This document shows, in pieces, positions 1,739 through 8,862 of a stretch of 42,624 nucleotides of DNA. The DNA is from Alphaproteobacteria bacterium (GTDB lineage: Bacteria; Pseudomonadota; Alphaproteobacteria; Rs-D84). The notes beneath the pieces are model-generated. The model searched no databases and had not been told where the DNA came from. It saw nothing but the letters and a program-made list of their open reading frames with translations. The DNA is taken from positions 1-42,624 of the forward strand of contig JAFGMU010000020.1 in assembly GCA_016927395.1 (NCBI GenBank). Reading direction: 5' to 3'. The position numbers were made by a program, and so were the translations under genes. The stretch's first letter is position 1, and each line of letters starts with the position of its first letter.

Positions 1739-1746
1739 ATTGAAAG

Positions 1747-1764
1747 TTCCCGCTGTTACGGGAA
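1747..1764 (+). promoter_or_regulatory. Intercistronic stem-loop upstream of rplE (class A)
   Basis: TTCCCG-CTGTTA-CGGGAA, about 20 nt 5' of the rplE ATG. Confidence 0.7.
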
Positions 1765-1784
1765 TGTAAAAAAAGGAAAAAGAA

Positions 1785-2330
1785 ATGCAAAGTAGATTGC
1801 GTGAAATTTATGAAAAAAAGATTGTACCTGAATTGGAAAAAGAATTCGGATACAAAAATAAATTTGCTGTACCACGTTTGGAAAAAATTGTTTTGAACAT
1901 GGGTGTTGGCTCGGCTGTTTCTGATAAAAAGAAATTGGAATCAGCAGTTGCAGATTTGACAGCTATTGCTGCACAGAAACCAGTAGTTACCAAGGCAAAA
2001 AAATCAATTGCAACATACCGTCTGCGTGCAGGTCAGGCAATCGGTACCAAGGTTACATTGCGTGGTAAAAGAATGTATGATTTCTTGGATAAATTGATTA
2101 CAGTTGCTTTGCCACGTGTAAAAGACTTTGCAGGATTGTCAAAATCAAAATTTGATGGTCGTGGAAATTATGCATTTGGAATCAAAGAACATTTGATATT
2201 CCCAGAAATTTCAATTGATAAAATTGATTCTATCATTGGAATGGATATTGTAATTGCAACAACTGCAAAAACCGATGACGAAGCACGCGCTTTGCTGACA
2301 AAAATCGGTTTGCCACTGGTATTGAAATAA
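1785..2330 (+). CDS. rplE: 50S ribosomal protein L5
   Basis: L5 sequence ([14 protein letters not shown]...[18 protein letters not shown]). Confidence 0.97.
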
Positions 2331-3141: not shown

Positions 3142-3693
3142 ATGTCTCGTGCAGGAAAATATCCAGTAGAAATCAAAAACGGCGTATCAATTGAAATCGT
3201 CGGTGGTGCCTTGGTGGTAAAAGGTCCAAAAGGTGAAATAAAATTACCTTTGGATACAAAAAATGCCGGCTTGGTAGAAATTAAAATTGAAAATAACGAA
3301 GTTGTCGTTACACCAAAAGATGCAGAAGATAAAGCATCACGCGCTATGTGGGGAACAATGACCCGCAATATCAAAGCGGCAGTTATTGGTGTTTCCGAAG
3401 GCTTTGTCAAAGAAATGTATATGAAAGGTGTTGGTTATAAAGCATCGGTTAAGGGTAAAGATTTGGTATTGGTTGCTGGTTATTCTCATGATGTTGTTTT
3501 GCCAGTTCCAACAGGTTTGTCTGTTGAAATGGGTGCAACACCAACTGAATTCATAATCAAGGGTATCGATAAAGTTTTGGTTGGACAGTTTGCTGACAAA
3601 GTTCATAAAGTTCGCAAAGCAGATCCATACAAAGGAAAAGGTATTTTCTATAAGGGTGAAAAGATCCGCCGCAAAGAAGGTAAAAAGAAATAA
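3142..3693 (+). CDS. rplF: 50S ribosomal protein L6
   Basis: L6 sequence (MSRAGKYPVEI...KVRKADPYKGKGIFYKGEKIRRKEGKKK). Confidence 0.97.
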   Translation: MSRAGKYPVEIKNGVSIEIVGGALVVKGPKGEIKLPLDTKNAGLVEIKIENNEVVVTPKDAEDKASRAMWGTMTRNIKAAVIGVSEGFVKEMYMKGVGYKASVKGKDLVLVAGYSHDVVLPVPTGLSVEMGATPTEFIIKGIDKVLVGQFADKVHKVRKADPYKGKGIFYKGEKIRRKEGKKK

Positions 3694-3728
3694 TAACCAA
3701 TTTCTTATTAGACCCAAAGGAGTATAAT

Positions 3729-3887
3729 ATGACAATTTTAGATACAAATAATATTGCGACTGTTGCACCAAAGGTTGTTGCTGGAGTTTTATTATCAATT
3801 GTTGTATTAACCGGTTTTGTATCAGCTTTGTATGGTAACAAAGATAAAAAATTGAATGATAAAATTAATCAAGGTAAACAAAGATAG
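3729..3887 (+). CDS. 52-aa predicted single-TM small protein inside the spc operon; unknown function
   Basis: ATG...TAG reading MTILDTNNIATVAPKVVAGVLLSIVVLTGFVSALYGNKDKKLNDKINQGKQR; AAAGGAG SD upstream; hydrophobic segment VVAGVLLSIVVLTGFVSALY followed by a Lys-rich tail. Absent from the supplied track, whose shortest listed ORFs are 60 aa. Confidence 0.75.
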   Translation: MTILDTNNIATVAPKVVAGVLLSIVVLTGFVSALYGNKDKKLNDKINQGKQR

Positions 3888-3904
3888 TTTTATTAACAAA
3901 ATAA

Positions 3905-3922
3905 TTCCCGCTGTTACGGGGA
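3905..3922 (+). promoter_or_regulatory. Intercistronic stem-loop upstream of rplR (class A)
   Basis: TTCCCG-CTGTTA-CGGGGA; near-identical to the element upstream of rplE. Confidence 0.7.
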
Positions 3923-3940
3923 TGTAAAAAAGGAAAAAAA

Positions 3941-4297
3941 ATGTTAAAACATTTATCTACTGATGAAAGACGCAAGTTATCTAATCGTGGTGCGTTGAAA
4001 AGAAAAAATCCAGGTAAAATCCGTTTATCGGTTTTCCGTTCTGGTCGTCATATTGAAATTCAAGCAATTGATGATGTTGCAGGTCGTACAATTTGTGCAG
4101 CATCTTCTAAAGAAAAAGCTTTCAAGGGCAAAGGTTGGAATGTTGCTGGTGCCGAAATGGTTGGTAAATCTTTTGCTGAACGCGCAGTGAAAGCAAAAAT
4201 TGAAAAAAATTGTTATTTTGATCGTGGTGCATATCGCTATCATGGCCGTGTAAAGGCCTTGTGCGAAGCTATCCGCGCAGGTGGTATAAACATATAA
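3941..4297 (+). CDS. rplR: 50S ribosomal protein L18
   Basis: L18 sequence (RLSVFRSGRHIEIQAIDD...FDRGAYRYHGRVKALCEAIRAGGI). Confidence 0.96.
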   Translation: MLKHLSTDERRKLSNRGALKRKNPGKIRLSVFRSGRHIEIQAIDDVAGRTICAASSKEKAFKGKGWNVAGAEMVGKSFAERAVKAKIEKNCYFDRGAYRYHGRVKALCEAIRAGGINI

Positions 4298-7896: not shown

Positions 7897-8862
7897 ATGA
7901 AAGTATTAGTTATTGGTGGGGCAGGTTATATTGGCAGTCATGTAACGCGTGAGCTTTTGGATAATGGTCATGATGTTACAGTATTTGATAATTTATCAAC
8001 GGGTACAAAAGAAAATTTATTTTCAGAATCAAATTTTATTCAGGGTGATATTTTGAATTATTCTGATTTGATTGACGCCATGAAAAATGGTTTTGACGCT
8101 GTCTTGCATTTTGCCGCTTTCAAGGCCGCAGGTGAATCCATGATAAAACCTGAAAAATATTCAACCAATAATATTTCTGGTACTATAAATATTTTGAATG
8201 CAATGTCAGAATCTGGGATTAAAAATATAATTTTTTCATCCAGTGCGGCTGTTTATGGCGAACCTGAATATGTTCCAATTGATGAAAAACATCCAAAAAA
8301 TCCAGAAAATTATTATGGTTTTACAAAATTGGAAATCGAAAGAATTTCGGGCTGGTACGAAAAATTAAAAGGATTTCGTTTTGCAGCATTGCGTTATTTT
8401 AATGCAGCTGGTTATGATACGCGCGGTCGAATTGGTGGACTGGAAAAAGGTACTGCAAATTTATTGCCATTGGTAATGGAAGTTGCAGCCGGAACCAGAC
8501 CAGAAATAACAGTTTTTGGTGATGATTATCCAACACCCGATGGAACGTGTATTCGCGATTATATCCACGTCAGCGATTTGGCAAATGGGCATTTATTGGC
8601 ATTAAATTACATAATTAAAAATGACAAAAGCTTGACGCTGAATTTGGGTACTGGAAATGGAACATCAGTAAAAGAAATAATAGATACAGCCAAAAGAATA
8701 ACCGGAAAAGAAATTAAAACTGTAATCGGTCCCAGAAGAGATGGCGACCCAGCAAAATTGACAGCATCTGCAAACATGGCATATGAAATTTTGGGTTGGA
8801 TACCAAAATATTCAGATATAGATACTTTGATAGAAAGCACCTGGGCAATGTACAATAAATAA
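7897..8862 (+). CDS. galE: UDP-glucose 4-epimerase (extended SDR)
   Basis: GGAGYIGSH, FDNLSTG, YxxxK (YYGFTKLEIE), LRYFNAAGYD, TPDGTCIRDYIHVSDLA. Confidence 0.93.
   Translation: MKVLVIGGAGYIGSHVTRELLDNGHDVTVFDNLSTGTKENLFSESNFIQGDILNYSDLIDAMKNGFDAVLHFAAFKAAGESMIKPEKYSTNNISGTINILNAMSESGIKNIIFSSSAAVYGEPEYVPIDEKHPKNPENYYGFTKLEIERISGWYEKLKGFRFAALRYFNAAGYDTRGRIGGLEKGTANLLPLVMEVAAGTRPEITVFGDDYPTPDGTCIRDYIHVSDLANGHLLALNYIIKNDKSLTLNLGTGNGTSVKEIIDTAKRITGKEIKTVIGPRRDGDPAKLTASANMAYEILGWIPKYSDIDTLIESTWAMYNK

Follow-up and report, generated by a model that had tools for sequence, protein, structure and literature searches.

A lineage-restricted small gene predicted to encode a single-pass membrane protein, and an adjoining candidate leader hairpin, between rplF and rplR in the alphaproteobacterial family Rs-D84

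Control of the spc operon is described for Escherichia coli, where uS8 represses at rplE; how the operon is controlled in Bacillus subtilis and other species is, according to a 2024 review, not known (PMC10931766). Lineage-restricted, covarying mRNA elements upstream of ribosomal-protein genes have been reported in a study of ribosomal leaders (Eckert and Weinberg 2020, PMC7247131). On the protein side, the closest comparisons to the gene described below are the orphan single-pass small membrane proteins of bacteria and the short, single-transmembrane (TM) alphaproteobacterial form of SecE. A literature search for non-ribosomal genes inserted in the spc operon at the rplF-rplR junction found no description of such an arrangement. 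Here, a stretch of 42,624 nucleotides (the window) from an Rs-D84 alphaproteobacterial genome of 779 kb, 92% complete, was analyzed. Among its named relatives found by rplF is 'Ca. Enterousia', which falls in the GTDB order and family Rs-D84 and represents a reduced-genome, probably partner-dependent lineage of Alphaproteobacteria (PMC12306168).

Between rplF and rplR, the window harbors a complete ORF of 52 aa (Table 1), the translation of which matched exactly that given in a preliminary description of this DNA made from the sequence alone; the strong Shine-Dalgarno (SD) motif reported there at about 7 nt from the ATG was found 6 nt ahead of it. The gap has a GC content of 28%, and in first-order Markov sequences of the same composition an ATG-initiated ORF of at least 52 aa occurred in 1.2% of draws, falling to 0.06% when an SD-like motif was also demanded. 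Among random ORFs 40-70 aa long, 0.2% had a 19-residue segment with a mean Kyte-Doolittle value of at least 2.5; the maximum in the window ORF is 2.54. A chance ORF was ruled out by these frequencies together with the codon-position and dN/dS evidence given below. A scan of the + strand near the ORF for an internal promoter or terminator returned nothing above shuffled background. Farther along the operon, a GalE-like NAD-dependent epimerase gene (7897-8862) lies between rpsK (S11) and rpoA, the position that rpsD commonly occupies in many bacteria, and adk was not seen between secY and rpsM.

Table 1. Positions of the small gene, its neighbors and the two hairpins in the window
Feature	Position	Strand	Description
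52-aa single-TM small protein gene (A1 family; TM predicted)	3729-3887	+	ATG 3729, TAG 3885-3887; homologs, selection, hydropathy
Shine-Dalgarno AAAGGAG	3716-3722	+	6 nt before ORF ATG
rplF (uL6, L6)	3142-3693	+	upstream neighbor of ORF; Pfam PF00347
rplR (uL18, L18)	3941-4297	+	downstream neighbor of ORF; Pfam PF00861
Hairpin AUUCCCG-CUGUUA-CGGGGAU	3904-3923	+	7-bp stem, hexaloop; core CCGCTGTTACGG at 3908-3919; 17 nt before rplR ATG
Second hairpin copy	1746-1765	+	same hairpin as at rplR, in rplX-rplE junction upstream of rplE; core at 1750-1761
rplE (uL5)	1785-2330	+	downstream of second hairpin copy; Pfam PF00673/PF00281

Homologs of the ORF, together termed the A1 family, were identified in four of the 183 other Rs-D84 family genomes, with 28-48% identity and always at the rplF-rplR junction. 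The five members (the window genome, G001 and three early-branching genomes of g11, a genus code that we took to be Enterousia) gave five strong matches in a profile search of the 184 family genomes; the profile was built from these same five, and the informative part of the search is that it revealed no further convincing member and no copy outside the junction. No convincing paralog was found in the window's genome or family, and a scan of genome contigs with the 52-aa query gave no match. The only other genome found of the window's genus, G001, carries an ORF that is 48% identical over 52 codons and has its own SD. Differences between the two by codon position are 23/8/32 and dN/dS is 0.45/1.39 = 0.32, with a second A1 pair (G117 and G087) giving 0.26/0.75 = 0.34; dS is near saturation in most A1 pairs, and these ratios are therefore rough, with a clear direction. 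The two comparisons proposed in the preliminary description, conservation in related genomes and dN/dS across homologs, thus both favored a gene, with frame and position conserved among the homologs and a ratio of about 0.3, not near 1, as purifying selection would give. Alignment Z scores of the best pairs were 5-16 even after separate shuffling of N-part, TM and tail, and all five members have a hydropathy of 1.6-2.5 and a net tail charge of +3 to +6. These alignments establish, at the level of sequence, that the A1 members share ancestry, and the gene is fast-evolving. Since frame, place and sequence are conserved in other genomes, a chance origin is untenable, and the window ORF is very probably a genuine protein-coding gene.

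The product is predicted to be a single-pass membrane protein. Its hydrophobic stretch covers residues 16-34, the N-part is neutral and the tail has a charge of +4; an AlphaFold model showed one continuous helix over residues 3-51 (mean pLDDT 73.5, and 86 over residues 11-30). This prediction draws on Kyte-Doolittle hydropathy and the model, and agrees with the one hydrophobic helix and basic C-tail of the preliminary description. By the positive-inside rule, a short N-terminus would lie outside and the C-tail in the cytoplasm, provided that the ORF is translated and its product inserted in the membrane, as we infer. Searches of Pfam, NCBIfam, PHROGs and PDB sequences found no convincing relative, only weak single-member matches, the strongest being of one of the five A1 members, not the window's, to DUF7555 (E 0.00068); identity as a ribosomal protein or a member of another known family was rejected, as no profile match was obtained in these collections. 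Foldseek with the AlphaFold model also gave no match, a result that is uninformative for a single helix. Like the short form of SecE, the protein is small with one TM helix, and secY lies in the same operon; however, its TM is N-terminal and its tail C-terminal, and an ordinary SecE is encoded elsewhere in the genome (G000:C1:14525-14686). Identity as SecE was rejected on this ground and by the lack of a PF00584 or other Pfam match. With the orphan small membrane proteins it shares a length of about 50 aa, one TM, a predicted basic cytoplasmic end, a strong SD and a restricted lineage, but it differs from them in lying inside the spc ribosomal operon and is unrelated in sequence to named families.

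The rplF-rplR junction was read in about 130 genomes of the order. The gap measures 6-39 nt in the other sampled families and 44-56 nt, with no ORF, in most crown Enterousia; the earlier statement that this junction is usually empty holds for these genomes and fails for the window's part of the family. In genera g2, g3, g5, g7 and g13 the junction carries a short ORF (two in G018 of g5) that encodes a hydrophobic segment and, in most cases, a basic tail after it; homology of A1 with these single-TM ORFs was not supported (mean Z 0.6). In seven crown genomes the junction holds a second family, B, recognized by the motif DYxSGxK and with a weak TM or none; its closest pair is under purifying selection with a dN/dS of 0.25, and A1-type B homology was not supported either (hhalign probability 0.4%, mean Z 0.75). 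Beyond these seven, placed at the junction, family B profile matches were also obtained in two further genomes, G207 and G190. The type B ORF of locus L120 (G137:C5) contains one in-frame TGA where a homolog appears to have Trp, and the close sister L118 is without an ORF, while the type B ORF of L044 (16-250 nt past the rplF stop) has its GDYLSGxK segment duplicated internally. The junction of L037 (G103) spans 222 nt with no recognizable ORF and includes a stretch (TTTTGCTGGCATT...) that resembles the post-ORF region of G001 (L002), a possible remnant.

On a tree of rplF and rplR, at least 11 changes are required to explain which tips have an ORF, and of two loci with identical rplF and rplR proteins, L044 carries the ORF and L045 does not. 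The junction is therefore a site where small genes have repeatedly been kept, lost or gained, the window gene being one resident. Direct repeats at the ends of rplF and of the ORF, checked for clean recombination loss, were mostly 5-9 nt, A-rich and unconvincing. Because the window gene is absent from most relatives, it has no core function; it is neither universal nor essential and is dispensable across the family. This absence, the fast evolution and the ordinary SecE elsewhere all speak against the SecY/YidC-linked or generally important role suggested earlier.

Adjoining the ORF, outside the segment flagged in the preliminary description, is a hairpin that is far better conserved than the A1 protein. 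Its core CCGCTGTTACGG has exactly two genomic copies, one before rplR and one before rplE, the products of which (uL18 and uL5) are 5S-rRNA-binding proteins. Comparison of relatives showed hardly any variation in the core and compensatory changes in the four outer pairs, with 90.9% of cells paired compared to 77.2% in shuffles and a covariation of 0.451 compared to 0.181 (0 of 500 as high). With few exceptions, copies at either site have 18-26 nt between the end of the core and the start codon. A covariance model searched against 61 genomes found one or two copies per carrying genome and none outside the window's family, and all copies that were placed lie at rplF-rplR or rplX-rplE junctions. 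At rplF-rplR, genera g4, g10 and g12 lack the hairpin, and no copy stands before rplE in the loci read for g5 and g12; every ORF-bearing rplF-rplR junction of the tree has it, between the ORF and rplR. At rplX-rplE loci L145, L146, L150 and L154 (g10, g9 and g2), unrelated ORFs of 55-94 aa lie between rplX and the hairpin. Neither Rfam nor the literature yielded a match or earlier description, and a search for the exact core pattern found no matching hairpin in the 5S, 16S and 23S rRNA loci that were retrieved. As a conserved covarying structure near ribosomal-protein gene starts, the hairpin is a candidate ribosomal-protein leader, and its presence may in addition allow the junction to accommodate small genes. 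It resembles the uS8-controlled operator of E. coli (PMC10931766) in being a structured mRNA site at the rplE start in the spc operon, but differs in its 7-bp stem and CUGUUA hexaloop, in occurring also before rplR and in having no sequence match in the fetched rRNA loci. The leaders of Eckert and Weinberg (PMC7247131) share the features named at the outset; the main text of that paper, however, does not mention rplE or rplR.

The account that we favor, with moderate confidence in the whole, combines a genuine gene, a lineage-restricted small inner-membrane protein and a permissive junction. The spc operon mRNA would carry the ORF as an additional cistron, translated from the ORF's own strong SD, and the product would place a TM helix of about residues 14-35 in the membrane. 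In the window's family rplR would have its own leader, formed by the hairpin and an SD, because of which an extra cistron need not break rplR translation; small genes could then be kept, lost or replaced at little cost, and their place may persist for the same reason. This tolerance is suggested by co-occurrence, which phylogeny alone could produce given that the hairpin state needs only two changes on the tree, and it gains support from the ORFs just before the hairpin at rplX-rplE. A wider proposal, plausible but held with less than even confidence, is that the two hairpins are one regulatory element before the uL5 and uL18 genes, distinct from the E. coli uS8 switch, that has made both junctions docking sites for small genes repeatedly kept and lost. 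As for a specific role, we would tentatively suggest, with considerable doubt, an accessory membrane protein that is not essential and would be dosed in step with ribosome production, its basic tail contacting an acidic partner, either lipid head groups or a membrane complex, on the inner face.

Patchy presence, with type B scattered over seven tips, the difference between L044 and L045 and the degenerate copy in G137 would also suit a selfish or near-neutral orphan that a permissive junction tolerates, either a decaying mobile element or a de novo gene. We consider this unlikely, as A1 occupies one site in two genera under purifying selection, and neither convincing copies elsewhere in the genomes nor a PHROG match were found. 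Alternatively, the act of translating the ORF, and not its product, might matter, with ribosomes setting rplR re-initiation or reaching the hairpin, and with the nascent TM drawing the polysome to the membrane ahead of secY translation. The ORF stop abuts the hairpin in many relatives (L009, L015, L044, L110, L126 and L135) and unrelated ORFs occupy the equivalent spot before both hairpins, but the window ORF stops 16 nt before the stem, A1 and B each show purifying selection on the amino acid sequence, and most crown genomes retain the hairpin and rplR without any ORF, making this reading quite improbable. A further reading, following an idea of the preliminary description, is that the protein is a membrane tether or modulator of translation or of the Sec machinery, its basic tail binding ribosomes or SecY/YidC. 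Such a role would accord with the predicted basic cytoplasmic tail and the operon common to ribosomal genes and secY; however, operon position is weak evidence, most relatives with the same operon lack the ORF, SecE is encoded elsewhere and the searches revealed no resemblance to Sec subunits or to any other named family, and we regard it as very unlikely.

In the window's family, reduced genomes thus present a natural series in which small genes at a single site are kept, replaced or lost. For spc operon control outside Gammaproteobacteria, the hairpin provides a concrete and testable candidate.
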